Assembly: GCA_001275005.1 (NCBI GenBank)
Contig: JWZX01002409.1
Coordinates: 1-30,745 of the forward strand
Source: Chrysochromulina tobinii
Lineage: Eukaryota; Haptophyta; Prymnesiales; Chrysochromulinaceae
DNA: 30,745 nucleotides
Direction: 5' to 3'
In this document: in pieces, positions 1-29,769 of the stretch
How positions within the stretch are numbered: position 1 is the first letter of the stretch
Layout of the letters: each line of letters begins with the position of its first letter
Notes under the pieces: model-generated
Told to the model about the DNA's origin: nothing
Seen by the model: the letters and a program-made list of their open reading frames with translations, nothing else
Database searches by the model: none
Program-made: the position numbers and the translations under genes

Positions 1-2977
1 GTGCGCCGGCGCCGTCGTGGGCGCGCGCCCGAGAGCGAGGGCGAGGACGAGATTTCGTCAGACGCGAAGCTGTGGAAGGGGGCGCATGCCGACGGCTGGC
101 GCGTGCATGCCAAGAACATGTCGCACTATGTCTACGTCGCACCGACAGGCGAGCAGCTTGATTGCATGCTGATTGCCTTTGATTGCAAGCTGATTGCACT
201 ATAGACTATATCGTACCTACGGACTATATCTACGTCGCACCGGCAGGCGAGCGCTTCCACAACAAGGGGGCGGCCTTTCTGGCGGCTGGGCGGGAAGCCC
301 CTGCGACCAAGCCGCCTGACCCCAAGCCGCCCAAGACGGCGCTCGACCCCAAGCTGCCCGAGCCCGCGCCGCCCCGGGCGCCCAAGACGGCGCTCGACCA
401 TAGGTTGCCAAATAAGGGAGGAGCCGGGTCGAATGACAACGTCGGAGCGGCGGAGGCCAAAGCGGAGGCCAAGGCGGCAGCAAAGGCGGCGGCCAAGGCG
501 GCGGCAAAGGCGGCGGCCAAGGCGGCGGCAAAGGCGGCGGCCAGGGAGGCGGCGGTTGCGGCGCGTCGTGCCGAGCGCCCATGTGGCGAGCGCCAGTCCG
601 CGCGGGAGGCTGCCCGGCGGGCGAGCGGGATCCTCGGTAGTTACGAAGAGCCTGATTGCATGCTGATTGCATGCTGATTGCATGCCGATTGCGAGCGGGA
701 TCCTCGGTAGTTACATGGAGCCTGATTGCATGCTGATTGCCTCCCTCATCAGGTACTTACGTGGAGCCTGATTGCATGCTGATTGCCTCCCTCATCAGGT
801 ACTTACGTGGAGCCTGATTCAGATGATGACATTGATGAGAGCTGCCTGCTGCCAATCAAACGGCCGCGGCCGCCGTCGCCGTCGCCCGAGCCGGTAGAGC
901 CGACCGGGCTGGCGAAGCTGCATGAGCACCCGCTGAGCAAACGGCCTTTGCCGCTGAATCAGTGCGACGTATGCGACGACGTGTGGACGACGTGGCGGTA
1001 CGCGCGTCTGATTGCGTCTGATTGCGTCTGATTGCGTCTGATTGCGACGCGTGGACGACGTGGCGGTACGCGCGCCGAGATGAGCGTCGTGATGAGCGTC
1101 GTGAAGCGATCTGCACCTTTGAGTCCATCCCCCTCATTGCATGCTGAATGCGACCCCTTCATTGCATGCAGGTGCTCCGAGTGCGACTTCTGATTGCGTC
1201 TGATTGCGTCTGATTGCATCTGATTGCATGCAGGTGCTCCGAGTGCGACTTCGACGTGTGCGCGCGCTGCTACGCGATGGCCGCCGGATGGGTGGCGCCC
1301 GAGACGGCGCGCGCCCCCTCGGATGGCGCCGTATCGGGCGCTCAAGACGGCGCTACGACCGAGGGGGGCGCCGCTGCACCTGCCGCGGAGCGCTCGCGTA
1401 GTGACGGCTGCACGAGCGCCGTCTTGAGCGCCACGGAGCGGTCCGCCGAGCCGGCGCCGCCGCCGCCGCACCCGACGAGGGCGCCGTGCCGGGCGCCAGT
1501 GGCGCCGTGCCGGGCGCCACTGGGGGTGCGCACCTCTGGGCGCGTCGTCGTGCCGCCATCGTATGCGGAGCCCAAGTGGTTCGGCGACGAGGGGGAGGAA
1601 GAGTGTCGGCAGCGCCGAGGGGCGCCCACGACGGCGCGGGGTAAGGCGGCGGGCAGCACGGCACGCGGCCCCAAGGGCGGCAAGCAGCGTCGAGGGACCA
1701 AGCAGCGTCGCTCAGGTTCGTCAACGGCCTCATCCTCTGATTGCGTCTGATTGCGTCTGATGGCCTCCCTCATCGGATGGCCTCCCTCATCAGGCTATTC
1801 GAAGCTGGACGAGCTGCCTACTATGGACACGGACGAGCAGTGCGAAGCATGCGACCTTGCAACGTGGGTGGACGGCAACGAGCTGCTGCTCTGAGTGCAT
1901 GCTGATGGCAGGCTGATGGCATGCTGATTGCCTCCCTCATTGCATGCAGGTGGGTGGACGGCAACGAGCTGCTGCTCTGCGACGGATGTCCCCGCGCCTA
2001 CCACCTCCGCTGCCTCGACCCTCCGCTCGAGAGCGTACCGGTAGACGACTGGATCTGCCCGAGCTGCAAGGAGAAGTGCGAGGCGTGCGGTGTGGAGACG
2101 TGGGCCGAAGGGAACGAGCTCCTCCTCTGTGATGGGTGCGCCTGATTGCTTCCCTCTTTGCATGCAGGTGCCCACGCGCGCCTTCCACATACGCATAGGC
2201 AGTGCCTCTCTGAGTACGTCCCTGATGGCCTCCCTGATTGCATGCAGGTGCCCACGCGCCTTCCACATACGCTGCCTCGATCCCCCACTTGCATGCGTGC
2301 CCGAGGGCGACTGGTACTGCCTCCTCTGCGTGCCGGGCGCCGGGGCGGGCGCCGGGTCGAGCGCCGTGACGGGCGCCGTGTCGGGCGAGGCGTTGGTGGG
2401 CGGACGGATAGAGATCCTCTGGCCGCTCGATGAGGCGTGGTATGAGGCGCTGGTGAGCGCTTACGACGACGCGACGAAGCGGCACGAGGTGCGCTACCGG
2501 CTACCGGCTACCGGCTGTCGCGACTCCCTCGATCCGGAGGGCCTCTGATTGCATGCTGATTGCCCCCTTCATTGCATGCAGGTGCGCTACGTGGACGATG
2601 ACGTGGTCGAGTCCCTCGATCTGCAGAAGGAGGTTTGGCGTCCCCATGGGCGGCTCGCGAGCGCCGTGCCGAGCGCCGTGCCGAGCGCCGCGCCGAGCGC
2701 CGCGCCGAGCGCCGCGCCTAGCGCGGGTGGGGCGGCCATCGCTCGGACGACGGAGGTACAGGCAAAGGCAGAGGCACCGGCGGAGCAGTTGACGGAGCAG
2801 TTGAAGCTGGAGCGCGAGGTAGCTCGAGCGCATGACGAGAGCATGTCCATATTATTAGGCAGCTCGCATGACGAGAGCATGCCCCGCATCGTTGATGGTC
2901 GGCTCATCGAAGAGCCGACGGCCTTTCCAACGGTGACGCTCAAGTTTGAAGGCGAGACGCATCGGCATGGGCGCTGA
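1..2977 (+). CDS. Chromatin reader: MBD-like, DC1/ZZ-like, two PHD fingers, Tudor-like domain (5' partial)
   Basis: Eight exons: 1-148, 247-636, 799-997, 1234-1715, 1794-1863, 1950-2135, 2248-2488, 2582-2977. They sum to 2112 nt with every phase matching, giving 703 residues plus stop; the true start is probably outside the window. Seen: an MBD-like stretch (GW...YVYVAP.GERFHNK, about residues 32-65); a Pro/Ala/Lys-rich linker; a DC1/ZZ-like zinc module (HEHPL...CDVC...[14 protein letters not shown], about 222-262); PHD1 (CEAC...[17 protein letters not shown]...WICPSC, about 420-469); PHD2 (CEAC...[17 protein letters not shown]...WYCLLC, about 473-519); and a Tudor-like module ([16 protein letters not shown]...[14 protein letters not shown], about 542-592). 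Known: PHD and Tudor modules bind histone tails and MBD-like folds bind DNA, so a nuclear chromatin reader is inferred. No catalytic domain is visible. Six of the seven introns carry copies of neighbouring exon sequence. The exon model is mine and needs cDNA. Confidence 0.82.
149..246 (+). other. GC-AG intron between duplicated exon segments
   Basis: The donor is GC (CACCGACAG|GCGAGC) and the acceptor GGCAG. The 30 bp at 125-154 recur at 223-252 with two mismatches, so each copy spans a splice junction. Between them lie TGATTGC units at 159-198 and a further partial copy of the exon near 200-220. Splicing restores one uninterrupted copy in frame ([12 protein letters not shown]). Confidence 0.7.
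637..798 (+). other. Intron with nested exon-segment duplications and CTGATTGC cassettes
   Basis: Spliced as ATCCTCG|GTAGTTAC...CCTCATCAG|GTACTTACG. The 24 bp at 621-644 recur exactly at 691-714. A 46-bp unit at 753-798 (exon start plus cassette ending CCCTCATCAG) precedes the real exon start at 799, which again begins GTACTTACGTGGAGCC. At least three rounds of duplication are visible, each bringing its own acceptor. Confidence 0.75.
998..1233 (+). other. Composite intron holding two duplicated exon segments
   Basis: Chosen because GTGGCG|GTACGC...TTGCATGCAG|GTGCTCC joins in frame into a compact zinc module. Inside it the exon stretch at 983-1006 recurs at 1051-1074 after four TCTGATTGCG units, and the first bases of the next exon (1234-1252) are copied at 1172-1190. 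A donor at 1006 with an acceptor at 1079 is an alternative for the first part, keeping a longer reading frame. Confidence 0.55.
1716..1793 (+). other. Intron with TGATTGCGTC units and two CCTCCCTCATC acceptor modules
   Basis: Spliced as CGCTCAG|GTTCGTC...CCCTCATCAG|GCTATTCG, preserving phase ([10 protein letters not shown]). The acceptor module GATGGCCTCCCTCATC is doubled; the first copy ends in GG and the second in AG. No clear flanking exon duplication is left, so this may be an older member of the class. Confidence 0.7.
1864..1949 (+). other. Introner-like intron with a perfect 30-bp exon duplication
   Basis: The 30 bp at 1864-1893 are identical to 1950-1979, the start of the next exon inside PHD1. 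The first copy begins with the GT donor (GCAAC|GTGGGTGG). Between the copies lie TGATGGCA and TGATTGCC units ending in CATTGCATGCAG. Removing 86 nt restores the PHD reading frame ([16 protein letters not shown]). Confidence 0.88.
2136..2247 (+). other. Intron in PHD2 with a frameshifted copy of the downstream exon start
   Basis: Spliced as CTCTGTGATGG|GTGCGCC...TTGCATGCAG|GTGCCCACG. A copy of the next exon start at 2168-2194 has two extra bases (CGCGCGCC against CGCGCC at 2248). That copy would break the PHD frame, so the second acceptor is preferred. TGATTGC-type cassettes precede both acceptors. Confidence 0.82.
2489..2581 (+). other. Intron whose 5' half is a diverged copy of the downstream exon
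   Basis: The donor side reads GTGCGCTAC...GACTCCCTCGATCCGGAGG; the next exon reads GTGCGCTAC...GAGTCCCTCGATCTGCAGAAGGAGG. So about 50 bp of the exon start is present on both sides, diverged inside the intron. The cassette CTGATTGCATGCTGATTGC then ends in CATTGCATGCAG. Splicing gives KRHE|VRYVDDD in the Tudor-like module. Confidence 0.82.
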
Positions 2978-3172: not shown

Positions 3173-3856
3173 TCAATCGGCGAAATCTGATGCCAAACTT
3201 GTAATGCCAGCCACGGTGCTTGGCGATGTAACGCATGCATCCACTGTTGCTAGGACCGTTGTGATAAAGAACCGCCGGTCGTCATAACTAGTGTGATTAG
3301 AGATGATCTTGAGCTGCGGGTTGTCCTTCAGCTTTGCTTCCACATCCGTTTTGTGTGATAGTGACGGATCATTAACCCCTTGCGTGTTCGTGCGGACGAT
3401 CTCCACCGTCCGCGCACTGGCCGTGCGCGGTGGAGTGAGAAGGCCTTCGCTCGGCAGCTGGTAGTATTCGAGCTCACGCTTGAGCTCGTTGGCGGCCTGC
3501 TCCGAACGCGGCTGGTCAACAAAGCCCGTGCGCAGGAAGTTGAGGATGGCTCGAAAGTGTGTGCCATCACGATCGATGAAGACATACCCTTCATCATCGG
3601 GTGGTACCTCGTGTCGGCCAGAGAACATCGCACCGAGCATTGAGTCCGGGTACCTGGTGAGCGTGCTCAACGTGGTCTCAAATTTGCTTCCACCGACATT
3701 CAACTTGACACGTTGCTTGAAGCGGGCCAGGTTTGCATCGACGACTGCTTTCATGCTCTGCAGCTCTGCGCGCTCGCGCCGCACGCTCTCTTGCTGCGAG
3801 CGCAAGCCATCAACAGCGCGCTGCAAGGCGTCAAGGTCGAGCGCGGCGTCCGACAT
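3173..3856 (-). CDS. BTB/T1 (KCTD-like) domain protein
   Basis: 227 residues from the ATG at 3856; upstream in-frame codons look like 5' leader. Residues 10-45 are a short charged helix. Residues 49-145 form a potassium-channel-tetramerisation type BTB: VKLNVGGSKFETTLSTL, PDSMLGAMFSGR, and FIDRDGTHFRAILNFLRTG. The remaining 80 or so residues match nothing I recognise. Known: stand-alone T1/BTB proteins of the KCTD type oligomerise and often bring substrates to cullin-3 ligases. That role is an inference here. No membrane segments are present, so it is not a channel. Confidence 0.85.
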   Translation of the reverse strand: MSDAALDLDALQRAVDGLRSQQESVRRERAELQSMKAVVDANLARFKQRVKLNVGGSKFETTLSTLTRYPDSMLGAMFSGRHEVPPDDEGYVFIDRDGTHFRAILNFLRTGFVDQPRSEQAANELKRELEYYQLPSEGLLTPPRTASARTVEIVRTNTQGVNDPSLSHKTDVEAKLKDNPQLKIISNHTSYDDRRFFITTVLATVDACVTSPSTVAGITSLASDFAD

Positions 3857-4081: not shown

Positions 4082-5786
4082 TCACGAAACTGTACCATCG
4101 ACGTCCACCTTGGCCCTCGCCTTCGTCTTCCTCGAGCCGCGCGCCCGCACCTCGTCTGTCTCTACAGTCACGGTCAGGGTTTCAGCTCCTGTGGTGGGGC
4201 CGGTGCATGGGCCGGTGACGACCGAGCTCGAGGCGGCGCCCGGGGCGGCGGCGCCCACGCTCGGTCCCCGCCTCGGCCTGCCAGTCTCGCTCGCCATCGG
4301 CGCCGTGGTGGGCGCTTGCATGCTCGGCCTGCCAGGCTCGCTCGCCATAGGCGCCGTGGTGGGCGCTTGCATGCTCGGCCTGCCAGGCTCGCTCGCCATC
4401 GGCGCCGTGGTGGGCGCTTGCATGCTCGGCCTGCCAGGCTCGCTCGCCGTCGGCGCCGGCCGCTTGCGAGCACCGCCGCGCGGCGCCGTGTTGGGCGCTT
4501 GCATGCTCGGCGCCCCTGCCGTGCCTCCGCTCGGCGCAGCGCCCAACACGGCGCCCCGAGTGGCATGCGCAAACGGGCCGTTGGCCACCCGCCGCCCCGT
4601 GGCCGATCGGGTCCAGCCGGTGGTGGGGCGATTCGCCTCGCACCAGCCGCGTACCTGTGAAGACGAGGGGCGCCGTACTGAGCACTTGCATGCAGGGCTC
4701 GAGGACCGCGGCGCCGTACTGAGCACTTGCATGCAGGGCTCGAGTCGGGCGGCGCGCCCGCCCCCCCCAACGGCGGCGTACCCGTCGAATGACCGTTTCG
4801 TCAAGAGCGCCGGTTAGGTCCACCGGCACTTCGTGGGTGAGGTGCGTGCCCGACTCGCTCACGACGGCGCGCAGCGCGCGGAAGGTGACGCCCGCCGCGG
4901 CCGCGCGCGCCGCCGCCGCCGCAAACGTGGGGTCGTGAAACGCCGACGGTCGGACCCCATGAACCACGTCGTCGCGCTGGACGACGAAGATGACGGAGCA
5001 GCGGTGGCCTGCGGAGACGAGCGCCGCGAGGGCGTCGCAGTGGCGTGCCGCACGCTCGCTCACCGAGTCGGGGAAGTAGGCCCACCTGATGAGGGACGCA
5101 ATCAGAGGTAATCAGAGGCCATCAGAGGTCATCAGAGGTCATCAGGGGAAGTAGGCCCACCCGTCCTCGTACACCAGGTGGCAGTTCTTGACCTCCACGT
5201 AGTGCTCGTGCTCGGTCGCCATACCGGTAGCCTCGCTGCTGCTGCTGCCGCCGCCGCCGCCGCCGCTGCACGTCGTGAGCTTGAAGTCGGCCCGCCCGCT
5301 GTGCACTGCACCGCTACCGTCGCTCGTGCATACCCTAATTTGGAACTTGGGCTCCGGCTTCAGGTGCGTCCACGCATCGAGGCCTGCAAGGCAGCGTGCC
5401 TCGAGGGCCGCACGCACCAGCGCATTCGGCCTCTGGGTGTTCGTACCGCACATGATAGGTCGTCCATCGCCAGCGCGCTCGTCCCGACGCTCGATGGCTT
5501 CCCACGTGTATCGGAGCTTGCGCGCTCTGCCGGCCGCCGTGTCGGGCGCCGGAAGCAGCCACACGGAGGCACCTGCGTCCACGAAGGCCTCCATGCGCCC
5601 AGGATTCACGCAGTGCGCCTCGACGTCGCCGGTCGGTAGACGGACACTGGCGATGAAGCGATCGCGCCGGTCGAGTAAGGTGCCACGCTGCAGCTCCGCC
5701 TCGTACGGCACGAAGATGGGCGCGGGCAAGATCGGGGTCGCGACGGCGAGCATCGGCGCGACCTTCAAAGCAGCGCCAGCCCGCAT
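4082..5786 (-). CDS. sfsA-like: SfsA-family protein with a repetitive C-terminal extension
   Basis: Three exons: 5786-5161, 5085-4782, 4654-4082 (500 residues, phases consistent). SfsA landmarks in order: VPYEAELQRGTLLDRRDRF, HCVNPGRMEAF, RYTWEAIERR, GTNTQRPNALVRAALEA, RADFKL, YVEVKNCHLVYEDGWAYFPD, then SERAARHCDAL, IFVVQRDD and the final GVTFRALRA..VPVDL. Known: SfsA has a PD-(D/E)XK-type nuclease-like core, with the D and ExK visible here as RADF and EVK; the cellular role is poorly defined. Bacterial SfsA is about 230-240 residues. The tail after about residue 305 is extra and includes a 17-residue repeat (ASEPGRPSMQAPTTAPM) encoded by a 51-bp minisatellite. A Gly/Ser run interrupts the domain before EVKN. 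Exon 3 is open in several frames, so the tail's frame rests only on splice phase. Confidence 0.85.
4266..4450. repeat. 51-bp minisatellite in the SfsA tail
   Basis: Units begin near 4290, 4341, 4392 and 4443 (last partial), almost identical. Each contains GGCGCCGTGGTGGGCGC and the palindromic GCATGC. 51 is a multiple of three, so the array keeps the frame. A related GCATGCAAGCGCTCACCACGG stretch sits in an intron at 19313-19336. Confidence 0.85.
4655..4781 (-). other. SfsA intron 2, with an internal 41-bp tandem repeat
   Basis: Spliced as TTCGACGG|GTACGCCGCC...GTCTTCACAG|GTACGCGGC, phase 0. The start of the intron and the start of the next exon share GTACGCnGC. Inside, a unit of about 41 bp containing TGCATGCAAGTGCTCAGTAC is present twice (4670-4703 and 4711-4744). 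Both acceptor frames downstream are open, so this junction is the weakest of the gene. Confidence 0.6.
5086..5160 (-). other. SfsA intron 1: 17-bp exon duplication around five CTGAT units
   Basis: On the minus strand the intron starts GTGGGCCTACTTCCCC and the next exon starts with the same bases (5145-5161 and 5070-5086 identical). Between them lie five units of the form CTGATnrCC followed by GTCCCTCATCAG. Splicing gives YEDG|WAYFPD, the conserved SfsA EVKN...FPD region, so the junction is well fixed. Confidence 0.9.
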
Positions 5787-6306: not shown

Positions 6307-7683
6307 TCAACGAAGGAGGCTCCCATCCCAGTCATAACTCCCTGCGCCGCCACGCGAGGACGCCACGCGCACGCGCACGAGCGGGGGTGAGTCGGCAGCG
6401 CGAGCTCGCCACGCCGGCGGGCGGCACGCGCGCGCTGCAGGGCGGCGGCCGCAGCCCGCCTCGCCAGGCGGAGGGGGGCGGAGGCGGAGGGCGCGCGCGG
6501 CGAGGGTCAACCTGGGTTCGATTCTCGGCGGGGGCTTACCGTTATTCCAATGATGTGAATCAGAACGAAAACCAGCCGCCCGGCCCTCTTGGAAGGTGAA
6601 GCCGGCCTGCATGCACTCCCTCGGATTGAACCCGGCCTGCTTCGCCTCAGCGCACGTGTAGCCCCCCTGCTTCGCCTCAGCGCACGTGTAGCCCGCCGCC
6701 TTGAGGCCCTCGACGTAGCCCGCCTGCTTCGCCTCAGCGCACGTGTAGCCCGCCGCCTTGAGGCCCTGCACCATACCCATCGCCTTCACCTCGGCGCACG
6801 AGAAGCCGAACTGCTTCATCGGCACGGTACCGCTGAGTTTCGCGCCCCCCCACCGGCCCTTGGCAGGGGGCGTGGCGTCAGTCAGCGTGCAGTCCCGCAA
6901 GCTCGCGTGGCTCAGATCGCAGTCGGAAAGGTCGGCGTGGGAAAAGTTGACGCCGACGAGCGTGGCGTGTCTGAATGATGCGCCTTTGAAGATGCACCCC
7001 GAAAAATGGCACGCCTTGTCGAGTACCATGCGACTAAAGTCCTCGCCCGTGAAGTCGAGGCCCGAAAAGTTGGACCGCCCTGCGCCGTACTGGTCCATAA
7101 AGTCGCGCGACGTCATGCCCTTGGAGCTAATGTACCCCGCCGCGCGCAGCTCGTCCGTTCCCCACGCGACCTTCGCCTCGGACAGCGTATAGCCCACCAC
7201 GCGCGCCTCCGCGCACGTGTAGCCCGCCGACTTGGCCATGCCGCAGTCCACGTGTGCCGCCTTGATCTTCGCGAGCGCATCACGACGCTGGATCAGCTCT
7301 TCGAGCGTCGCCGGCCGCGAGGCACCGCTCGCGCTCCTCGGTAGCTCGAGCTCCGCATTGAGGCGCGCCGCGAGAGCCTGGTTGTGTGCGCGGACCTCCT
7401 GCAGCTGCGTCGACATGGTCGCCCGCTCTTCCTCGAGACGAGCCCGCAGGGCTTGATTCTCATGGCGCAGCTCTGTCATCTGGGTCTGCAAGGATTGCAA
7501 GAGCTGCATCGCGGCGCTCTGCTTGGCCTCGGATTCAGCCGCAGCCTTGACATGCTTCGCGTCCTGTTCCGCCGCGGCCTTGACCTGCCTCGCGTCCAGC
7601 TCGTTCACCGCCTTCTCCAAGATGTCCACCTGCACCAGCATATGGCCGCACACCAGCTCGGGGGAGAGGGCGGTCGACGCCAT
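6307..7683 (-). CDS. Coiled-coil, pentapeptide and decapeptide-repeat protein, copy A
   Basis: Two exons, 7683-6540 and 6341-6307, giving 392 residues. The start MAST(A)LSPELVCGH is shared with copy B; upstream codons lack ATG. N-terminal third: amphipathic Ala/Gln/Glu/Arg coiled coil. Middle: pentapeptide repeats (NFSGLDFTGEDF..., FKGASFRHATLVGVNFSHADLSDCDL). C-terminal: degenerate AGYTCAEAKQ decapeptides. Known: pentapeptide repeats fold into a right-handed quadrilateral beta-helix, usually a protein-binding scaffold. No enzymatic motif is seen. The last exon adds only SYDWDGSLLR; its match with copy B (TRDWDGQDLR) supports the splice. Function unknown. Confidence 0.8.
   Translation of the reverse strand: MASTALSPELVCGHMLVQVDILEKAVNELDARQVKAAAEQDAKHVKAAAESEAKQSAAMQLLQSLQTQMTELRHENQALRARLEEERATMSTQLQEVRAHNQALAARLNAELELPRSASGASRPATLEELIQRRDALAKIKAAHVDCGMAKSAGYTCAEARVVGYTLSEAKVAWGTDELRAAGYISSKGMTSRDFMDQYGAGRSNFSGLDFTGEDFSRMVLDKACHFSGCIFKGASFRHATLVGVNFSHADLSDCDLSHASLRDCTLTDATPPAKGRWGGAKLSGTVPMKQFGFSCAEVKAMGMVQGLKAAGYTCAEAKQAGYVEGLKAAGYTCAEAKQGGYTCAEAKQAGFNPRECMQAGFTFQEGRAAGFRSDSHHWNNGKPPPRIEPRLTLAARALRLRPPPPGEAGCGRRPAARACRPPAWRARAADSPPLVRVRVASSRGGAGSYDWDGSLLR
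6342..6539 (-). other. Intron of pentapeptide gene A
   Basis: Donor AATAACG|GTAAGCCC, acceptor GGCGGCGCAG|GGAGTTATGAC, 198 nt. The length is a multiple of three and has no stop, so retention would still give an open protein. This is a conventional GTAAG intron without the TGATTGC cassette. Confidence 0.75.
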
Positions 7684-8092: not shown

Positions 8093-9729
8093 TCAACGAA
8101 GGTCTTGCCCATCCCAGTCACGAGTCCCTGCGCCGCCACGCGAGGACGCCACGCGCACGAGAGGGCGTGAGTCGGCAGCGCGAGCTCACCACGCCGGCGG
8201 CCGGGCCGCACGCAGGGCGCGCGGGCCGCACGCGCGGCCTCACGGCGGCGGCCGCGGCCCGCCTTGCCGGGCGGAGGGGGGCGGAGGCGGAGGGCGCGCG
8301 CGGCGAGGGTCAACCTGGGTTCGATTCTCGATGGGGCTTCACCGTTATCCCAATAATATTTGGAAGACCCGTAAAAATCAGGATAACCAGCCTCCTTGCC
8401 CTCTTGGTGGGTGAAGCCGGCCTGTATACACTCCCTTGGATTGAACCCGGCCTGCTTTGCCTCAGCGCACGTGTAGCCCCCCTGCTTCATCTCAGCGAGC
8501 GTGTAGCCCGCCTTCTTCGCCTCAGCGCACATGTAGCCCCCCTGCTTCATCTCAGCGCACGTGTAGCACCCCTGCTTCGCCTCAGCGCATGTGTACCCCC
8601 CCTGCTTCGCCTCAGCGCACGTGTAGCCCGCCTGCTTCGCCTCAGCGCATGTGTACCCCCCCTGCTTCGCCTCAGCGCACGTGTAGCCCGCCTGCTTCGC
8701 CTCAGCGCACGTGTAGCCCGCCGCCTTGAGGCCCTGCACCATACCCATCGCCTTCACCTCGGCGCACGAGAAGCCGAGCTGCTTTATCGGCGCGGTACCG
8801 AAGTTTCCGCTGAGCTTCGCGCGCTTCGCGCCCCCCCACCGGCCCTTGGCAGGGAGCGTGGCGTCAGTTAGCGTGCAGCCCTGCAAGTTCGCGGACGTCA
8901 GATTGCCGTTCGCGAGCTGAGCGCCGGTCAGAGTGCAGTCCCGCAAGCTCGCGTGGCTCAGATCGCAGTCGGAAAGGTCGGCGTGGGAAAAGTTGACGCC
9001 GACGAGCGTGGCGCTCCTGAATGACGCGCCTTTGAAGATGCACCCCGAAAAGGTGCACGCCTTATCGAGTACCATGCCTTCGAAATCCTCGCCCGTGAAG
9101 TCGAGGCCCGAAAAGTTGGGCCGCCCTGCGCCGTACTGGTCCATAAAGTCGCGCGATGTCATGCCCTTGGAGCTAATGTACCCCGCCGCGCGCAGCTCGT
9201 CCGTCGCCCACGCGACCTTCGCCTCGGACAGCGTATAGCCCACCACGCGCGCCTCCGCGCACGTGTAGCCCGCCGACTTGGCCATGCCGCAGTCCACGCC
9301 GTCAGCCTTGATTTCCGCGAGAGCAGCACGACGCTGCTTCACCTCGGCCAGCGTCGCCGGCCGTGAGGCACCGCTCGCGCTTCTATGCAGCTCGAGCTCC
9401 GCATTGAGGCGCGCCGCGAGAGACTGGTTGTGTGCGCGGACCTCCTGCAGCTGCGTCGACATGGTCGCCCGCTCTTCCTCGAGACGAGCCCGCAGGGCTT
9501 GATTCTCATGGCGCAGCTCTGTCATCTGGGTCTGCAAGGATTGCAAGAGCTGCATCGCGGCGCTCTGCTTGGCCTCGGATTCAGCCACAGCCTTGATATG
9601 CTTCGCGTCCTGTTCCGCCACGGCCTTGACCTGCCTTGCGTCCAGCTCGTTCACCGCCTTCTCCAAGATGTCCACCTGCACCAGCATATGGCCGCACACC
9701 AGCTCGGGGGAGAGGACGGTCGACGCCAT
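8093..9729 (-). CDS. Coiled-coil, pentapeptide and decapeptide-repeat protein, copy B
   Basis: Two exons, 9729-8343 and 8127-8093, 473 residues. Same order as copy A: coiled coil (about 20-115), pentapeptide solenoid (about 205-292), then a longer run of AGYTCAEAKQ decapeptides (about 320-445). It carries an extra pentapeptide stretch (GAQLANGNLTSANLQGC) absent from copy A. The decapeptide array has about nine full units, clearly more than copy A. The array is encoded by a 30-bp tandem repeat, visible from 8440 to 8720. Without splicing the frame would run on to 7801 with low-complexity sequence; the short last exon ending DWDGQDLR is preferred because both copies conserve it. Confidence 0.8.
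8128..8342 (-). other. Intron of pentapeptide gene B
   Basis: Donor GATAACG|GTGAAGCC, acceptor GGCGGCGCAG|GGACTCGTGAC, matching the intron of copy A in position. The donor differs from copy A (GTGAAG against GTAAGC). Reading through the intron shifts the frame, so removal is required for the conserved C-terminus. Confidence 0.7.
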
Positions 9730-14198: not shown

Positions 14199-16030
14199 TC
14201 AGTCACGGTATCCGCCCGACCTGCCACCGCCACCGCCGCGCCCACCGCCCTTGCCATATCCGCCGCCGTCGTAGAATCCGCCGCCCTTGCCGCCGCCTTT
14301 GCCAAAGCCGCCCTTGCCGCCGCCCTTGCCGCCACCTTTGCCAAAGCCGCCGCCTTTGCCGCCTCCTTTGCCGCTGCCGCCGCCGCGGCCGCCGCCGTAG
14401 CTGCGGCCGTAATCATCCTCATCCTCAAAGTCATCGAGATCGTCAAAGTCGTCCACGCGGCCGCCACCTTTGCCCTTTCCGCCGCCTCCCTTGCCGCCGC
14501 CGCCCTTGCCGAAGCTGCCGCCCTTGCCACCGCCGCCGCCACGGCCACCGCCATAGCCGCGCCCAAGATCGTCGTCATCGCGGAAGACCGGTACTTGATC
14601 ATCGAGATCGTCAAAGTCATCCACGCGGCCGCCACCCTTACCCTTGCCACCGCCCCCCTTGCCAAAGCCGCCGCCCTTGCCGCCAAAGCCGTCGCCCTTG
14701 CCGCCGAAGCCGCCGCCCTTGCCGAAGCTGCCGCCCTTGCCGCCACCCTTGCCCTTGCCGCCATCAATCTCGCCGTCCAGATCGTACTCATCCTCATCGA
14801 GATCATCAAAGTCGTCCACGCGGCCGCCACCTTTGCCCTTGCCTCCACCGCCCTTGCCAAACCCGCCGCCCTTGCCAAACCCGCCGCCCTTGCCAACCCC
14901 ACCGTCCTTGGCAACCCCAGCGCCCTTGCCGCCGCCCTGGCCAAGCCCAGGACCAGTGCTTGCACTGACCGTCAGCTCATCCTCATCCTCATCCTCCTCA
15001 TCCGGATAGTAATCGAAGTCGTCCTCCTCGTCGTCTGCGCCGAGCACCTGATGAAGGACGCAATCAGAGAGGTCCTCAGAGGTCCTCCGAGGCCATCAGA
15101 TGGCGCAATCAAAGTCCTCCTCGTCCTCCTCATCATCTGATGGCACTCAGATCGTAATCAGATGGCGCGCAATCAAAGTCCTCCCCCTCCTCATCGTCAG
15201 CGAGGCAACGGGCAACGGGCTCCGGGCTCCGGGCTCTCCCTCACCTGCGAGATCGAGTTGTGCAGCAGCACCTCCTCGATGAGCGCCAGCAGCTCCTTGG
15301 TCACCGCCGCCTTCTCCTCCGCCTGCTGCGCGAAGTCGCCCACCTTTGCGAACATGTCGAAGAAGGAGAGGCTGCCCTCGATCGTGGGCGCCTTGCCATC
15401 ACGCCACTTGATCTCGAGGCCGCTCGTGCTCTTGAGCTGCCCCTTGACCCGATCAAACGCGCACTCGAGCGTCTCGAATCCGGGCTCGAGGAACTCATTC
15501 GGGCGGAAGACGAGCACCAGGTGCACCGTGTCGCGCTCGTCGAGCGCGTCGTCCGTGTGCGTCTTGACGGCCAGTTGGATGTCGGCGAGGTGCGCGAGGA
15601 TGCGAAGGTCCAGCTCATTCGGCACGTTCTCCGACTGCAGCGCTTCCACGTCGTGCAGCAGGACGCCTTGCATGATCGCCTTCTGCCAGTAGAGCTTCAG
15701 GTCGTCTTCGAGTTCGGTAGGCACGGGTGTCTCGTCTGAGACGACCGCGGGAGCTGCCGCCTCCTCCTCAGTGAGAGCGGCGCCTGCGAGGATCGCCGCC
15801 CGTCGCTCGCGCAGCTGCTGCGTGCGCTCCACGATGGTACGCTTGAGCTTGAGGACTTCCGTCGCCTCGAGCTCGTCCATCTTGCCCTCGAGCAGAGAGA
15901 GCGCCGCAAGACGCTGCGGCACCGACGGCGGCGGCAGAGTGCTCAGCAGCCGGCGAGCCTGCAACCTGCGTCGCAGCGCTGCCAGCGTGGGCGTTCGCTG
16001 AGGCGCAGCGCGCTGCAGCGCGGCCCGCAT
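14199..16030 (-). CDS. NAP-family histone chaperone-like protein with presequence and Gly/Lys-Asp repeat tail
   Basis: Two exons, 16030-15245 and 15047-14199, phase 0, 544 residues. NAP features in order: long helix MDELEATEVLKLKRTIVER and RRAAILAG; LKLYWQKAIM; HLADIQLAV; VHLVLVFRPNEFLEP; GLEIKWRDGKAPT; LSFFDMFAKV; then LIEEVLLHNSISQ. These align in order with NAP1 (FW..A; F.PNPYF; I.W..GK; SFFNFF; final helix). After the intron comes the acidic tail typical of NAPs (ADDEEDDFDYYPDEEDEDEDE), then an unusual Gly/Lys-rich region with three GGGRVDDFDDLD repeats. Residues 1-35 (MRAALQRAAP...RRRLQARRLLSTLPPP) look like a mitochondrial presequence, unexpected for a nucleosome chaperone. The family call is from motifs I can see; localisation is an inference. 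Confidence 0.72.
15048..15244 (-). other. NAP intron with degenerate copies of the acidic-exon start
   Basis: Spliced as ATCTCGCAG|GTGAGGGAG...CCTTCATCAG|GTGCTCGGC, 197 nt, phase 0. Inside, GATGAGGAGG...GAGGACTTTGATTGC occurs twice. It resembles the next exon's GACGACGAGGAGGACGACTT followed by CGATTAC, so the intron seems to contain worn copies of that exon fused to GATTGC units. Acceptor: CTCTGATTGCGTCCTTCATCAG. Confidence 0.8.
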
Positions 16031-16379
16031 CGCTCGCGGTTGCAGGCATGAAAAGCGGCCTCGTCGCTCGCTCGGTGCCAAAAAAGTCACGGATTTCACC
16101 GTTGACAGTTCCGCCCGTGATGCAGTGAATGAGTTAGAATGAGGGAAGCCTCCAGCATGCACTCATAGTGGAGGGGGGAAGGGGGGAAGGGGGGAATTTT
16201 TGGGAAGGTGCGGGAAGGTGCTCAGCACACTCGCTCACGCTCTCTTTAAGCTCTACTCACGGTCTCACGCTCTAACACTCTCACTCTCAGTCAATCAGTC
16301 TCACGCTTAGTTGGGCCACACAACGAGGCACACGGCGAGCGGGACCGCCAGCTGGGTAAAACCAGCGATCAGCGTTGGT

Positions 16380-16980
16380 GGCCAAACTGATCGCCGCCCT
16401 GACCGTGGGGCCAGAGCGCCCCTTCCAGAGCGCGAGTTCGGCTGGCAAAGGCTCGTTTGCCCAAGAAATGGATAAAGTCATAAAAAGTCATCCGGCCCCA
16501 TGGGCAGCACCAGGGCCTTGCCTTCGGTCTCCGAGCTGCTGACACCGTTCTTGCTGTCTTCGAGTATATCGCTCGGCGTGCGCTCCATCTGCTCCGTGCG
16601 AGAGATCAGACTCCGCACCTCACTTGCCTGCCACTGATCGCCGCCCTGACCGTGGGGCCAGAGCGCCCCTCCAGAGCGCAAGGTCGGCTGGCAAAGGCTC
16701 GTTTGCCCAAGAAATGGATAAAGTCATCCGGCCCCATGGGCAGCACCAGGGCCTTGCCTTCGGCCTCCGAGCTGCTGCCACCGTTCCTGCTGTGGGGCGT
16801 GCGCTCCATCTGCTCCGTGCGAGAGATCAGACTCCGCACCTCACTTGCCTGCGCACGCACAGCGGAGAGCAGCGTCGCGTCGTCGCCAGCGTTGGCGCGC
16901 ACGTCAAGGCACACAACAGAGTCAAACCAATGACAGCTCGACGACGCCGAGTCTAACCATTGCACATATGGTCTAACCAA
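16380..16980 (-). pseudogene. Tandemly duplicated gene fragment, possible tail-anchored protein
   Basis: A segment of about 220-247 bp occurs twice (16388-16630 and 16635-16851). On the minus strand both copies read ASEVRSLISRTEQMERTP and EGKALVLPMGPDDF, and both start after a CAG (CAG|GCAAGTGAGG). The copy nearer 16980 continues DFIHFLGKRAFASR; the other gains an extra TTTTTATGA and stops. A hydrophobic stretch (TQLAVPLAVCLVVW) lies further downstream in one frame. I do not recognise the family. It may be a live gene with a duplicated exon, or a decaying one. Confidence 0.4.
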
Positions 16981-18321: not shown

Positions 18322-20571
18322 TCAGTCATCAAAGTCATCCGAGTCGCCACCGTCGACGAGACCGACGTACGACGAGGCTCGCGACGCGCGCTGTCCCGGG
18401 CGCATAGGCGTCGTCCCGGGCGGCGTCGTCCCGGGCGTCCGGCCGTTGCCCACGCCCGCGCCCAGGGAGCCCTGTGAATAGGAGCCCTGTGAATAGGGGG
18501 CGAGCGCCGGCCCACGAGCCGAGGGCGGCGCACCCGCGCCGTGTTGGGCGCCCGGCGGTTTCTCGTCGCCGATGAGCATCGCCTGTTGATGCGTGGCGCG
18601 CGCTGTGAGTGTGAACTCGTAGACCGACCCCATCTTCTCACGGCACTGTACGATGCGACGGTCGAGGCTCTCGAGGAACCAGCTCTGCAGCTGCAGCATG
18701 CGCATGTACAGGTCGGCATCCGCGCGGTTGATGTGAAGCGTCTTTCGCTGGAACTCGCGCATCAGTTCGGTCACGCGCTCCGAGAAGCGGTCGCATACCT
18801 CGGACGCGCCCGCCGCCGCGGCGGAGACGCCCTCGCCGTATGCGGAGTGCGCGCGCAGGTCGACCTCGGCGAGTTCGGCGAGCAGCGCCTCGTTCTGCTG
18901 CTTCTGCTGGCGCAGCTGAGTGTCGATCGCCGCCGCCGATTCGATCGAAGACTCGAGAAGCCTCTCCTCGGTGTCGTTGAGCTTGCGCCTGCCCGTGTTG
19001 AACGCGTTCCGCATCTCGCGCAGCTCGCGCCGCAGCCGCTCCACCTCCGACGACTGCAGCACCTGATGGAGGAGGCACCCAAGCGTCCTCATACGGTGTC
19101 GTCAGGGTTCGTCAGGGTTCGTCGGGGAGCACTCAAGCGTCCTCAGCGGCCCATCCGAAGCGATCAGAGCAGTGGTGTCGTCAGGGTTCGTCAGGGTTCG
19201 TCAGGGAGCACTGCAGCACACCTCCTCATAGGGCACTTGGGCGGCGCACCGACGGCGCAGCTCGTTGATCTTCTTGAGGGCCTTTGCCTGTTGGCGCTCG
19301 AGCCGCTCGGTGGGGCGCCGTGGTGAGCGCTTGCATGCAAGGCAGATCATCAGTGGCAATCAACGAACCTGTTGACGCTCGAGTCGTTTCGCCTCGCGAG
19401 CACGCCATACCCGATTGAGGCGGAGCAGCAACTCCGCGAAGATCTCCATCGGCATCTGGGCCATGTGCTGCCGTCGGAAGTCGTTGGCGAGCGCGTACGC
19501 GTCCGAGGGCACCCAATGCTCCATCTCGGCGCTCGAGCCGCGCACCGTTCGCTCCTTTTTGGGATGGAGCATGCCGGCTTCGGCCGCAAACTCGGTGTCG
19601 CGCATCGAGGGCGGCGGTGGCACGTAGTTGGGCGGTGGCACGTACGTGATGCCGCCACTGTCTTCGGAGTAGGCCACAAACTCCTTTAGGGGCACGGGAG
19701 CGGGGGGGGGGGTCGAGCGACGTAGCGAGCGTCAGTGGCGAGGTTTGGCACTCCGTAGCTCTCAGGCGCACGCGCGCACCTTATACTCCTCGGTGGACGA
19801 GAGCAGCTTGACGAGGCGCGCGTTGTCGAGCTGTAGCTGGTGCAGCAGCGCCTGCACCTGCGCCTCGGAGCGACGGTTGAGGTGAAGGTACCTGACTTGC
19901 TCCTTGGCGCCCATGAGCTGCCGGCCGAGCTCGCCGCTGGATCGCTCGAGCTCCGCGATGCGCGCCTGGGCGGACTCGACCGCGGCGGAGCTCGAGGTGT
20001 GCGCATCAATCGAGCGGCGCAGCTCCTCCGCCGTACTCGCCAGCTTCTGCTCCTGCAGGTGCATCGTGAACTCCTTATTGGAGACGGCCTGCTCTAGCCG
20101 GCGTTGCTCCTGGTGCAGCTGCTCCACCAGCGCCTGCTTCTCATGGTGGACGCGCTCGAGCATCGCCTGCAGCTCCGAGATGACGGGCGACTGCTGCTGC
20201 GTATGCGCCTGGAGGCCCGCGAGCTGGCCCTGCGCGTCGCTCAGCGACTGCCGCAGCTCCTGGCAGCTCGCCGCTAGCTTCCCATTCTCCTCACGCGCCC
20301 CCGCGAGCTGCAGCTCGGTGAAGCGGCACTTGTCGCGCAGCTCCACGGTGAGCGCCTGCAGCTGCTGCATCGCCTTGTCCTTCTCACCACCGGCGCTCAC
20401 GTAACCGTCGCGCCGCTGCAGCTCCATCTGTGCCATCGCGAGCTCCGACTTGGTCTTTTGCCACATCTCATGGATGCGGATCATCTCACGCTGGTGCTGC
20501 GCCTCCAAGGCGGGCGGAGAGGTGCTGGCCATAGGCGTCTCATAGTACGACTGGCCGTATGGGTAGCTCAT
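18322..20571 (-). CDS. Four-exon coiled-coil protein (centrosome/basal-body type suspected)
   Basis: Exons 20571-19780, 19683-19369, 19287-19222, 19062-18322; all junctions are phase 0; 637 residues. Residues 1-30 are Tyr/Pro/Ser-rich. A long heptad coiled coil runs from about 25 to 265 (EMIRIHEMWQKTKSELAMAQ, VQALLHQLQLDNARLVKLL). A central non-coil part follows: STEEYK|EFVAYSEDSGG, WVPSDAYALANDFRRQHMAQ, EIFAELLLRLNRVWRAREAK. A second coiled coil follows (SSEVERLRRELREMRNAF, LMREFQRKTLHINRADADL). The end is a disordered Pro/Gly/Ser tail ending DDFDD. Known: coil, central LN.(I/V)WR.RE motif and coil recalls CCDC77-like centriolar proteins; I hold this only as a suggestion. The three introns were inferred from frame and from exon duplications at their edges. 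Confidence 0.72.
19063..19221 (-). other. Intron with near-copies of the exon start and TGACGAACC repeats
   Basis: Spliced as TATGAGGAG|GTGTGCTGCAGTGC...CCTCCATCAG|GTGCTGCAGTCG. The intron start and exon start share GTG(TG)CTGCAGT. Inside, CCTGACGAACCCTGACGACACC-like blocks occur at both ends, showing that the intron itself was duplicated. CTGAC and CTGAT here both fit branch-site consensus. Confidence 0.7.
19288..19368 (-). other. Reverse-polarity introner: the duplicated exon end supplies the acceptor
   Basis: The exon ends CGACTCGAGCGTCAACAG (19386-19369). The intron ends CGGCTCGAGCGCCAACAG (19305-19288), 16 of 18 bases equal, and then the coding frame resumes (LERQQ|AKALKK). Here the copied exon end provides the AG, and the donor GTTCGTTGATTGCC begins the cassette. 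The middle carries TTGCATGCAAGCGCTCACCACGGCGCC. Confidence 0.75.
19684..19779 (-). other. Short intron without the CTGATTGC cassette
   Basis: Spliced as GAGTATAAG|GTGCGCGCG...TGCCCCTAAAG|GAGTTTGTG, 96 nt, phase 0, joining STEEYK to EFVAYSE. A C-run serves as the polypyrimidine tract. No flanking duplication is visible, so this one looks conventional. Confidence 0.7.
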
Positions 20572-25118: not shown

Positions 25119-25162
25119 CACAAGATCTCGCCCAGCTTCCTGGGTCGGGGGCGGCCGAGGAT

Positions 25163-25586: not shown

Positions 25587-26877
25587 ATGGCTGCCAAGGC
25601 TGAGCTGGATAAGAAGTACCTGAAGGAGGAGGAGCACGAGAAGCTGCCCGATGGCAACAAGCGCTATACGATCTGTGGCATGCGCTTTGAAACCACGCCA
25701 GAATATGCGGTGCGCAAGGCAGTCGGTCAGGGTGCGTACGGCCTTGTTTGCTCGGGACGCAATGTGGAAACCAACAAACTTGTGGCCATCAAGAAGATTT
25801 CCAAGGCCTTCGAGGACACCGTGGATTGCAAGCGGCTGCTGCGAGAGATCAAGATCCTGCAGCACTTCAAGCATGACAACGTGCTGGGGCTGCTCGACAT
25901 CCTGCCGCCTGGGAAGGATGGGTCCAAGGAGTGGAAAGATGTGTACATTGTCTCGGAGCTCATGGACACCGACCTGCACTACATCATCCACTCCAAGCAG
26001 CAGTTGACCGACGAGCACTTCAAGTACTTCCTCTACCAGATCCTTAGGGGCGTGCACGCGATCCACACGGCCCACGTGCTGCACCGCGACCTCAAGCCCG
26101 GCAACCTGCTCGTGAACAAGAATTGCGACCTGAAGATCTGCGACTTCGGCCTCGCGCGTGGCATCGATCCCTCCGAGGAGAAGAAGGATATCGGCCTCAC
26201 CGAGTACGTGGTCACGCGTTGGTACCGTGCCCCCGAGCTCCTCGTCGAGAATCAGAGCTACACGACGGCCATTGACGTGTGGGCCGTTGGGTGCATCTTC
26301 GCGGAGATGCTCGGGCGCAAGGCGCTCTTCCCCGGGCGCGACTACCTGCACCAGCTGCGCCTCATCATCGACCACCTCGGCACCCCGAGCGAAGCCGATC
26401 TTGCATGCATCACCAACCGTCAGGCGGTGCAGTTCCTGCGCACGCTGCCGGTCAAGCCACGCAAGCCCTGGGCGGACGTCTTCCCGTCGGCCTCGACGGG
26501 AGCGCTGGATCTGCTCAACGAGATGCTCGTCTTCGACCCAGCCAAGCGGTGCACCATGGTCGATGCGCTGAATTCGGAATACATGGCGGCGCTGCACCAG
26601 GGCCGCACCCTCCCGCAGGAGGAGGAGCACTTTTCGTTTGGGTTCGAGAAGCCGGACATCACGCAGGAAGAGCTGCGCGACCTCATCTGGGAAGGTGCGT
26701 GCTGCGGGAGTGGCTGCGGATTGCCGCGGATTGCCGCAGATTGCCGCGGATTGCCGCGGATTGCCGCTGATGACCGCTGATTGCCGCTGATGACCGCTGA
26801 TGACGTCATCTGCCACGTCACCACGTTCCACAGAGATGGCCAGATTCCATCCCGAGCTCGCCAAGAAGGGCAAATGA
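25587..26877 (+). CDS. TEY-type mitogen-activated protein kinase
   Basis: Exons 25587-26694 and 26834-26877, 383 residues. ATG at 25587 chosen; the codon at 25575 is GTG. Kinase landmarks: VGQGAYGLVCSG (P-loop, about 47-57), catalytic Lys69 in VAIKK, LHRDLKPGN (HRD 166-168), DFG 186-188, activation loop TEYVVTRWYRAPE (TEY 205-207), and DVWAVGCIFAEM. Known: dual phosphorylation of Thr and Tyr in TEY by a MAPK kinase switches the enzyme on; it then phosphorylates Ser/Thr-Pro sites in cytosol and nucleus. All catalytic residues are present. The short second exon supplies EMARFHPELAKKGK, normal for the C-terminal helix. It starts just after the right direct repeat, so its promoter may include that repeat. 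Confidence 0.93.
26695..26833 (+). other. MAPK intron built of GATTGCCGC and TGATGACCGC repeats
   Basis: Spliced as TGGGAAG|GTGCGTGC...GTTCCACAG|AGATGGCC, restoring LIWE|EMARFHPEL. From 26716 a unit of about 9-10 bp, GATTGCCGC or TGATGACCGC, repeats about nine times; each CTGAT fits a branch site. The acceptor end differs from the other cassettes. Confidence 0.9.
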
Positions 26878-27433: not shown

Positions 27434-29769
27434 TCACGTCGCCCCCCTGAGCCGGATTTGCACCTCGGCCCGCCGGTTGTGTCGCCTCCCTTGCGCCGTC
27501 AGGTTGGAGGCGACGGGGTAGGCGGCGCCGCACGGCAGCACGCCTAGGGCGCACGTCACCCCCTGAGCGACGAGCCACTTCCTGATCGCGACGGCGCGCG
27601 CCCGGCTCAACTCGATGGGATGGTCTTCCCGAGCGTCGGCGTGCCCCTCGAGCATCAGCTCGAGCTCCGGGTTGTCCTGGAGCATGCGTGCCACCTGATA
27701 ATGACGGGGGCCATCAGTGGTCATCAGGGCGCCATCATGGGCATTCAGCGTCCGCCGTGTCGCTCAAAGGCACTCAGCGACCATCGTGGCAATCACCTCT
27801 CAAAGGCACTCAGCGACCATCGTCGCAATCACCTTGAGTAGCATGGGCTCGGCCTTGGAGGGCACGGCCGCCGTGCCGCTCTCGAACGCAAGCCGCTTGG
27901 CGAACAGGAGCGACTGCACGACTGTGAAGCGAACCGCACTCATCCCATGCTCTTGCAGCCCGTGGATCATCGCCGGTGGGCACGCCTCAGCGCGGCACTG
28001 CTGGCGCAGCACGCCGTGTGTATTGAGATGAGCGACCACTGCCTTGGAGCGCTGCAGCGCGACCGGCCCCGCCTCCGTGTGCACCGTGCATCCGAGGACA
28101 CGCACTTTGAGCTTCCGGTCCCGTTTGAGTGCCGTCGTCACGAAGGCGAGGTCGGCGCGCGCCTGTGATGGGGGGGCACTCCGAGCCACAATCAGACTTC
28201 CATCAGAGCCCAACCAGAGCACTGGCATGCACTCGCATGCACTCACATGCACTCGCATGCAATCGCATGCAATCACGTGCAATCGTCCCAACTTGGCCTG
28301 ATGATTGCACTCAATTAATCAAGTAAGAGGCAATCAATCGTCCCACCTTGGCCTGATGATTGCACTCAATTAATCAATTAAGAGGCAATCAATCGTCCCA
28401 CCTTGGCCTCGAGCTTGAGGGAGCCCATCGCAAACGGGATGACGACCTCCTCGAGCCTCTTAGGGTACCTGATGAGGAACGCAATCAGAGGCTCTCAGAG
28501 GAGCGCTTCCCAGGGTACCGGATGAGAGACGCAATCAAAGATCAATCAACGTGCAATTGGTTTGCCATCCCTGTCCCATCAGAGAGCCCCTCCGAAGGCA
28601 CTCGAAGGCTTGCTTGCCCACGAGCAGCCGGCATGTACGGGCAGTCGATGGGCAATCAATGGGCAATCAACGGGCAATTAGGGTAATTAGCGGGCGATGA
28701 GTACTCGAAGGCTTGCTTGCCCACGAGCAGCCGGCATGTACGGGCAGTCGATGGGCAATCAATGGGCAAGCAATGAGCAATCAACGGGCAATCAGGGCAA
28801 TTGGGGCAATTAGGGTAATTAGCGGGCGATGAGTACTCGAAGGCTTGCTTGCCCACGAGTAACGGGCACCGTTCCCTCTCGAGGTAACCTCGCACGTTCG
28901 CCTGGATTTGGACCGCGCACCTGATGAAGGAGGCAATCCATCGTCATCAGCTGATGAAGGAGGCAATCCATCGTCAGCAGCAGCAGCCAAACGCACTCAA
29001 AGCCGTTGGGCTGCTTGATACGCAATGCTCAATCCACTGAGTGCAATCATTGTGCAATCAGCTCGAAAGCCTTTGGATCGCGCACCGCTCCCGCCGCACG
29101 CGCCGCCGCTGCGACAGCACCTCGGCCCAACGGCTGTTGATCGTCGTCGCCGCCCGGAGGGCCCGCGCCCGGGCCCGCTGTGCGGCCTCTCGCTCTGACT
29201 GGCGTCGGTGCAGCTCGCGTCGTGCCAAGCGCTGCGCCCAGCGCCGGCGCATGGCGCGCGCGAGCCGATCTGCCGCGATCTGGCGCAGCTGCGCTCTCCA
29301 CGCACTTTCTCGCGCCTCGACCACCCGACGCTCACGACGGCGCTCGAGGAGGAACTTCGCGCGAGAGCTGATCACATTCACAGCGGAGAGGCGAAGCGCG
29401 TGCCACGCCCACGCGCTCTGGATGGCGCGCGCGCCGCGCCGCATCTGGCCCCAGCGCCGAAGAGCGATGCGCCGACGTGCCGCGGCCGCCAGGACTGAAG
29501 CCGCCGCGCTCCTCGCTGCGCTCTCCGCCGCGCGTCGCCGCCGGCGGTGCTTGCGCCAGGCGAGCTGCAAGAGCGCCGTCGCGGCGTCCCGCTGCCGCCG
29601 CCGCCGCTGATGCAGGTGCTCGCTACAACGCGCCGCGATGCACGCCGCCGCTTTGGCTTCTAATTGGCACTCACCTGATGAGGGAGGCAATCGATGGGTA
29701 GCTGATGAGGGAGGCAATCAAGGGAGTCCATCTTTGGCTTCTAATCGGCACTCACGACGGCGCTTCTCA

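Follow-up and report, generated by a model that had tools for sequence, protein, structure and literature searches.

The origin of introns in mass is a long-standing question; transposon-type introners explain some lineages, whereas tandem duplication has been documented in individual cases. In introners, similar sequences make introns at unrelated sites, with target-site duplications (TSDs) of 3–9 bp and/or terminal inverted repeats (TIRs) where such features are present, and the survey describing them reports an unchanged mRNA length for most introner families (Gozashti et al., 2022; PMC9860276). The Chrysochromulina introner shown there has 4-bp TSDs and its own 5' site, and the survey pipeline, which included manual removal of low-complexity families, required that introns be similar close to each of their ends (PMC9860276). 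The present analysis concerns a repeat cassette built of CTGAT-type units, found in introns of several genes in 30,745 nucleotides of the haptophyte Chrysochromulina tobinii (hereafter the window), which constitute one whole contig (JWZX01002409.1, C1266) of a 53.15-Mb assembly of 2,253 contigs.

Other related systems have been described. In the tandem exon duplication model (Rogers, 1989), as treated for potato RdRp, an AGGT is needed in the target and no foreign filler is involved (PMC4974935). Direct repeats of 4–30 bp (mean 11.4 bp) near both borders are described among 213 introns of several classes and are read as traces of break repair at insertion (Rogers and Bendich, 2025; PMC11782384). 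Patch-mediated double-strand break repair in rice gives tandem-duplication insertions, some of them with pieces from ectopic or nearby donors (Vaughn and Bennetzen, 2014, as cited in PMC7407515). Finally, Amoebophrya introners are strain-specific repeated introns with direct repeats of 3–5 nt at the borders and inverted repeats of 8–20 nt (PMC7789003), and intron gains without introner-like conservation are reported for a chlorarachniophyte (PMC12730881).

A repeat cassette between exon copies

Judged from sequence, cassette insertions that are accompanied by exon duplication are very probably spliceosomal introns of recent gain. The original prediction, made from the window alone, had described a module that ends introns of unrelated genes on both strands, and the same module indeed does so in a PHD/chromatin gene (+ strand), in SfsA (−) and in the genes that were then labelled NAP (−) and IQ/OmpA (−). 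The CTGAT core, which had been taken for a branch site, does appear branch-site-like in view of the CTRAY repeats in the module. What had escaped notice is that the exon sequence following the cassette is duplicated upstream of many cassettes; the observation is therefore confirmed as real but incomplete.

The further claim that the module is repeated and dispersed throughout the genome is borne out by motif counts. In the window, CTGATTGC occurs 30 times against 1.5 expected, a number reached in 0 of 100 shuffles, and TCCCTCATCAG and TTGCATGCAG, each with at most one mismatch, occur 12 and 24 times against 0.6 and 3.2 expected, respectively. Genome-wide, where the repeat counts are lower bounds, there are 1,799 copies of CTCCCTCATCAG (6 for the reversed control), 1,208 of CTCCCTCATCAGGT (control, 0) and 254 of TTGCATGCAGGT (control, 2), and pairs of the unit CTGATKRC number 10,772 at a 10-base period, 1,642 at 11 and 1,027 at 12, compared with 2–3 in the controls. 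The bases that follow the motif serve as a proxy for a comparison of introns with intergenic DNA. GT comes next after 67% of the genome copies of CTCCCTCATCAG (1,208 places), in comparison with 5.3% for CAG in general (7,392 sites) and 7 of 207 for CATCAG not preceded by a unit, and copies followed by A, C or T number 213 (control, 6). The cassette units are strongly clustered, with a variance-to-mean ratio of 22.6 over 20 regions of 10 kb each. A search of viral contigs with a cassette 20-mer gave 0 matches, and a search of prokaryote contigs (257 Gb) with a cassette 18-mer gave 6 against approximately 7.5 by chance, so that there is no sign of a prokaryotic source for the cassette.

The duplication was evaluated in the window and 20 contig starts (230 kb), where the sequence following the cassette is copied upstream, with a score of at least 10 and in some cases nested, at 30 of 52 sites ending in CTCATCAG; the corresponding rate at CAG, AG, GAC and CTG control sites (1,500 each) is 4–6%, and such copies are rarer at ends of the types TTCATCAG (4/11) and GCATGCAG (5/33). 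Scanning 53 sequences yielded 154 candidate events, of which 72 passed as clean events, having an insert of 20–130 nt, a unit in the insert and none in the copy, no overlaps and no repeats. The exon copies in these 72 events are not of fixed length but range from 13 to 53 nt (median 25), copy detection requiring a score of at least 13 and thus missing shorter duplications; 32 of the copy pairs are identical, the mean identity is 97%, and the inserts between them have a median of 57.5 nt. An open search for duplication–insert–duplication arrangements found a cassette unit in 37 of 80, against 14% of random windows, the rest including coding repeats and other insert types, so duplication by itself is not specific. 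Of the 20 regions of 10 kb, 8 contain a clean event, and 200 kb of contig starts hold 32 such events, 12 being in the first GT-AG count. Extrapolated to 53 Mb, this would give roughly 3,000 introns, a coarse figure given that only the initial 10 kb of each of 20 contigs, all with low numbers, were sampled.

The splice sites of these events have more than one origin. AG comes from the insert end and GT from the duplicated exon in 14 of the 72 events; in 17, AG|GT lies inside the duplicated exon, which means that the insert contributes no splice site; and in 3, GT comes from the insert start and AG from the exon copy. Of 85 non-nested events, 32 have AG|GT at corresponding offsets where tetranucleotide frequency predicts 6.7, and this pair is first of the 256 dinucleotide pairs by both count and enrichment. 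Over the 72 clean events its raw count (34) is exceeded only by that of GG|TG (35), which marks the same position one base off, and it occurs in the sense orientation 34 times and in antisense 8 times. AG/GT was not in excess in a duplication count without the cassette as anchor, in which many of the 1,840 pairs resemble coding tandem repeats, and counts of sense against antisense open frames did not discriminate. GC-AG was considered as a general solution and dropped for want of enrichment, although the proposed intron at 149–246 still fits it. Splice signals thus come from insert or exon copy in varying combination, which indicates that the module is not always the acceptor and suggests that whatever splices is kept, and the coupling of exon duplication to insertion makes the new intron frame-neutral. 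The proposal of a self-sufficient 3' splice module holds insofar as the cassette often brings an AG acceptor, and fails as a general rule in that other GT-AG events draw AG from the exon copy.

Recent gain and its probable route

Removal of the introns restores conserved proteins in the PHD, SfsA and asparaginase genes, as expected of spliceosomal introns. With the six GT-AG introns of the PHD gene (Table 1) taken out, a single open frame remains, bounded upstream by a last stop that lies in the first cassette and downstream by the stop of the gene, and the hand-joined spliced stretch matches Pfam PHD in two stretches (77.9 bits), corresponding to two PHD fingers; the intron at 1864–1949 sits inside one such finger. 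In the SfsA gene, removal of both introns restores the open frame: the Pfam SfsA match (RE domain) scores 96.5 bits when spliced as against 24.3 for the part before the 5086–5160 intron, and splicing out the second intron gives IRRVRGWCEANRPTTGWTRSATGRRVANGPFAH and a C-terminus similar to those of homologs.

The SfsA homologs also include filled and empty sites. P0123 and P0124 (99% and 98% identical) end exactly at GWAYFP, at which point the intron has its stop, whereas P0121, P0122 and P0125 (95–96% identical) read through at the protein level with a single copy, WAYFPDSVSER, as do the more distant homologs P0126–P0129 and P0134. At the position of the second intron, P0121, P0122 and P0125 have extra in-frame residues, and they accordingly look like unspliced calls rather than gene models. 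The nearly identical P0121 and P0122 differ in this in-frame stretch by a 24-residue duplication, suggesting that duplication inside introns is also recent. Among the 120 matches listed for SfsA, the closest named eukaryote homolog belongs to the haptophyte Scyphosphaera apsteinii (58%), in keeping with a haptophyte-like host.

Comparable evidence comes from other loci. In the asparaginase gene (L005), the junction is covered by the alignment with E. coli L-asparaginase 1 (2him; E 2e-85), in which a two-residue gap comes a few residues past the junction, and it also falls within Pfam Asparaginase_C (94.2 bits). The homolog P0001 (99%) runs on into the intron, where it terminates, and P0002 (80%) and eight others compared read through, all at the protein level; two of the eight (P0019 and P0028) derive from transcripts and are uninformative on introns. 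The junction at L038 lies within a Thioredoxin_14 match (57.5 bits). We take this gene, from that match, to be UGGT-like. One of its intron sites is read through in P0241–P0245 and another in P0246 and P0247; at a third, P0247 has a duplicated segment together with an in-frame translation of the cassette, both lacking in P0246 and in the gene itself. Because close relatives read through with a single copy at SfsA, asparaginase and UGGT-like sites, the gain appears to be recent. P0241–P0245 all run into an apparent cassette after EPTVPRQ, and this intron therefore seems to be shared, which means that there are older as well as newer introns. The junction at L023 lies within an Exo_endo_phos match (40.9 bits); no family was matched in a Pfam scan of the L040 gene, and that of L016 gave only HEAT repeats away from the junction.

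As for how the insertions arise, the junctions themselves are informative. The exon copy continues the cassette by 1.29 bases at the 5' side (57 usable events) and by 1.95 bases at the 3' side (53), compared with 0.49 bases in a matched simulation passed through the same detection; 0 of 5,000 resamples reach the observed microhomology, and the excess persists without the AG-ending class. The sharing of 9-mers between inserts is greater within a contig than under permuted contig labels (0.083 vs. 0.050; 8 of 3,000 permutations; 71 inserts, 20 contigs), which fits nearby donors. The insert 3' ends are variable where both splice sites lie in the exon copies. Together, microhomology, sharing with nearby donors and variable 3' ends favor repair with templated filler, and staggered-break repair with cassette filler, followed by selection for splicing, is in our view the best route and a moderately probable one. 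A staggered break or paired nicks in an exon would be followed by fill-in of the overhangs, giving two exon copies, and microhomology-guided end joining or template switching would copy cassette DNA (or its RNA or cDNA) into the gap. The filler would come from existing branch-site minisatellite cassettes with CTRAT-type units mostly 10 nt apart and often ending in CTCATCAG or GCATGCAG. Insertion would be blind to splice sites, and selection would retain spliceable events; those kept would carry a GT within or just behind copy 1, matched at the corresponding position by an AG within or just ahead of copy 2, and removal of one copy's length together with the cassette would restore the old mRNA. 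In this explanation we infer repair as the cause, the nature of the donor and the use of CTGAT as branch point, whereas the exon duplications and their variable length, the restored frames, the presence or absence in relatives (as proteins), the junction microhomology and the abundance of the motif across the genome are shown by the data.

Non-LTR (LINE/SINE-like) retroposition, in which an RNA with a 3' CTGATTGC array ending in CTCATCAG would be reverse-transcribed at a nick to leave short 5'-truncated copies with variable TSDs, accounts for the variable duplications, the variable 5' end and the 5' microhomology. The genome has 26 RVT_1 matches, 22 of them over the cut-off, so reverse transcriptases are present and retroposition may occur, which also weighs against the repair route. 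A common 3' end would likewise suit it: ends are of CATCAG type in 11 of the 14 events with AG at the insert end (class A), whereas they are variable in classes B and N and vary widely in the 17 events with AG|GT inside the duplication. Moreover, the 3' microhomology is at least equal to the 5', the listed inserts have no A-tail, and no longer element body was seen in an insert search that reached only approximately 250–260 nt. We therefore regard retroposition as unlikely.

It is more doubtful still that these are old introns in which a minisatellite expanded and the border was secondarily duplicated with the adjacent exon, in the manner of the potato-type tandem duplication. Nested tandem duplications of copy plus cassette do occur (L037, L042 and window 706–819), and the intron that P0241–P0245 all appear to enter implies that older introns exist, but relatives read through a single copy at the SfsA and asparaginase sites and at two UGGT-like ones, where such a history would thus have had no prior intron to work on. 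A DNA-transposon-type introner with an unusually long target duplication would explain many similar inserts at unrelated sites, with the duplicated target providing one of the splice sites, as reported for introners (PMC9860276). Such an element is very improbable here: the duplications measure 13–53 nt, not the 3–9 nt given there (the detection score of at least 13 would miss short TSDs), insert length and both ends vary, and no long TIRs were seen by eye, no systematic scan having been run. The 20-base core CTGATTGCCTCCCTCATCAG starts with CTGAT and ends with ATCAG, a complementarity of five bases that may simply be branch site plus CAG acceptor. The model of the original prediction, a self-sufficient portable acceptor moved alone into introns, has in its favor the shared ends, the branch-like units and the 22 of 52 CTCATCAG cassette ends without detectable duplication, and is scarcely tenable given exon duplication at many sites and an acceptor that does not come from the insert in 17 + 3 of the 34 GT-AG events.

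Several points weigh against recent gain by repair with cassette filler. The empty sites are known at the protein level and not from DNA, and the sources do not say by what procedure the proteins were called. No upstream copy lies within 260 bases at 22 of 52 CTCATCAG, 7 of 11 TTCATCAG and 28 of 33 GCATGCAG sites, among them the window intron 1716–1793, where no flanking duplication was found and the best upstream match scores only 3; 68 of 158 unit clusters are without a flanking match scoring at least 12, and 16 of the 72 clean events are flagged as nested. For 38 of the 72, no exact GT-AG solution exists; these may be spliced at other sites or may belong to older introns or to DNA outside genes. 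A GC-AG solution is available for 10 of the 38, yet the frequency of GC-AG at corresponding offsets does not exceed chance (11 vs. 12.4 expected in 85 events). The minisatellite may in part have expanded after insertion. HTH_61 is a domain of polymerase theta/HELQ; it was searched for and not found, POLQ was not identified, and a DNA_pol_A domain is present on two contigs.

A broader proposition, which we hold in even balance, is that this genome may make introns on a genome scale without a transposase, by reuse of a branch-site minisatellite as filler at staggered exon breaks. Each scar would then come equipped with a branch site and, by way of the exon copy, with matched splice sites, and repair scars would in that case become thousands of introns, spreading by neighborhood copying and varying among close relatives.

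Features of the window and of other loci

Table 1. Introns and related cassette-bearing stretches of the window; NAP, IQ/OmpA and coiled-coil are gene labels of the original prediction.
Feature	Position	Strand	Composition
PHD/chromatin gene, proposed GC-AG intron	149..246	+	Exon copies 125–154/223–252 (30 nt, 2 mismatches), cassette 155–222
PHD/chromatin gene, GT-AG intron (removed)	637..798	+	Nested GTASTTACRWRGAGCCTGATT duplications, CTGATTGC/CTCATCAG cassettes; spliced open reading frame continuous
PHD/chromatin gene, GT-AG intron (removed)	998..1233	+	Duplications 977–1006/1045–1074 and 1161–1190/1223–1252; CTGATTGCGT arrays; spliced frame read
PHD/chromatin gene, GT-AG intron (removed)	1716..1793	+	Ends CTCCCTCATCAG, next exon GCTATTCG; open reading frame continuous
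PHD/chromatin gene, clean GT-AG intron (removed)	1864..1949	+	Copy 1 1864–1893, cassette 1894–1949, copy 2 1950–1979; 30 nt, identical
PHD/chromatin gene, GT-AG intron (removed)	2136..2247	+	Two successive cassettes ending TTGCATGCAG; splicing restores second PHD finger
PHD/chromatin gene, GT-AG intron (removed)	2489..2581	+	Cassette CTGATTGCATGCTGATTGCCCCCTTCATTGCATGCAG; both exon copies start GTGCGCTAC; open reading frame continuous
SfsA, second intron	4655..4781	−	TGCATGCAAGTGCTCAGTACGGCGCC insert, of a different family, with end CTCGTCTTCACAG; following exon GTACGC
SfsA, intron	5086..5160	−	Exon copy 1 GTGGGCCTACTTCCCC (16-mer, on each side of cassette), five CTGATNNC units, TCCCTCATCAG, exon copy 2
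NAP, intron	15048..15244	−	Ends TCCTTCATCAG|GT; internal copies of acidic exon-like segment
Coiled-coil, related repeat	19075..19145	−	17 nt copies, 37 nt insert, CTGACGAAC units
Composite stretch	28280..28961	−	Several cassettes and duplications, e.g., 28280–28409, 28543–28679, 28921–28961; not split into introns
IQ/OmpA, intron	29675..29755	−	24 nt exon copies (GTGAGTGCCRATTAGAAGCCAAAG), two YGATTGCCTCCCTCATCAG cassettes

For the proposed intron at 149–246, GC at 149 and AG at 245–246 are read directly, and the exon joining would follow from the reading frames. The GTASTTACRWRGAGCCTGATT copies of the next intron, with their leading G, are at 636–657, 706–727, 752–773 and 798–819. In the NAP-labelled gene, LLHNSISQ in frame 0 joins VLGADDEEDDFDYY in frame 2, with boundaries read by eye. 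A related form of the module had also been claimed for the coiled-coil gene; its repeat and duplication are seen, but a GT-AG solution was looked for at 19075–19145 and none was found.

Other repeats accompany these features. Exon-like duplications likewise surround inserts of a second family, TGCATGCAAGTGCTCA...CGGCGCC, whose CACAG end is rich in pyrimidines (window 4655–4781 on the − strand, L042 at ~3480–3592 and L043 at ~4330–4437), and at L042 2007–2092 an exon-like duplication surrounds an unrelated tandem unit (CGAGATAACGGC-like), the filler thus not always being of the CTGAT family. At 26695–26833 (+), a kinase gene (MAPK-like by eye) has an intron of GCGGATTGCC repeats shading into CTGATGACC units, a branch-site-like array of 10-base period. 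Two adjacent similar genes at ~6550–7680 and ~8380–9725 (−) carry CTTCGCCTCAGCGCACGTGTAGCC short-repeat arrays that differ in copy number, and an imperfect tandem duplication with copies ~246 bases apart spans ~16370–16860. A short GGCGCCGTG-type motif, often with TTGCATGC, occurs in coding and non-coding DNA (2334–2388, 2658–2724, 4290–4740 and 18400–18560), and resembles HIP1-like overrepresented words.

Comparison with known systems

The present cassettes are like introners in that similar introns stand at many non-homologous sites and a splice site can be co-opted from the duplicated target, and single-copy read-through in relatives, at the protein level, points to de novo creation within exons. 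They differ from the introners of the survey in that the duplication is long and variable and only the minisatellite-like insert is shared, not the whole intron (PMC9860276); in resolved events the 5' part of the intron is a copy of the host exon, so that similarity does not extend to both intron ends. Given the removal of low-complexity families and the demand for similarity at two ends in that survey, introns of the present kind would tend to be lost from it, and the present results point to a class that it would tend to discard as low complexity (PMC9860276). Amoebophrya introners are likewise repeated introns with direct repeats at their borders, although those repeats are shorter and are accompanied by inverted ones (PMC7789003).

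The resemblance to tandem exon duplication lies in a duplicated exon segment that gives GT and AG and leaves the protein unchanged, and the difference lies in the dispersed cassette between the copies and the genome-wide scale (PMC4974935). With the insert median given above, these are not introns of duplication only. AGGT lies in the duplicate in 17 of the 72 events and not in the 14 with AG from the insert end; because the cassette brings branch-like sites and often AG, the target then needs only GT. Direct repeats near the borders are a feature in common with the introns of Rogers and Bendich (2025), whose abstract mentions no shared repeat cassette (PMC11782384), and rice repair has miscellaneous filler where the filler here is largely one branch-site repeat family (PMC7407515). 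No report of exon duplication combined with a shared branch-site cassette was found in the literature searched, which did not cover most subscription papers. With filled and empty sites among close relatives, the birth of introns should be measurable by strain comparison. Overall, the present genome joins what introners and tandem duplication each offer, namely, long exon duplications and a shared branch-site repeat.

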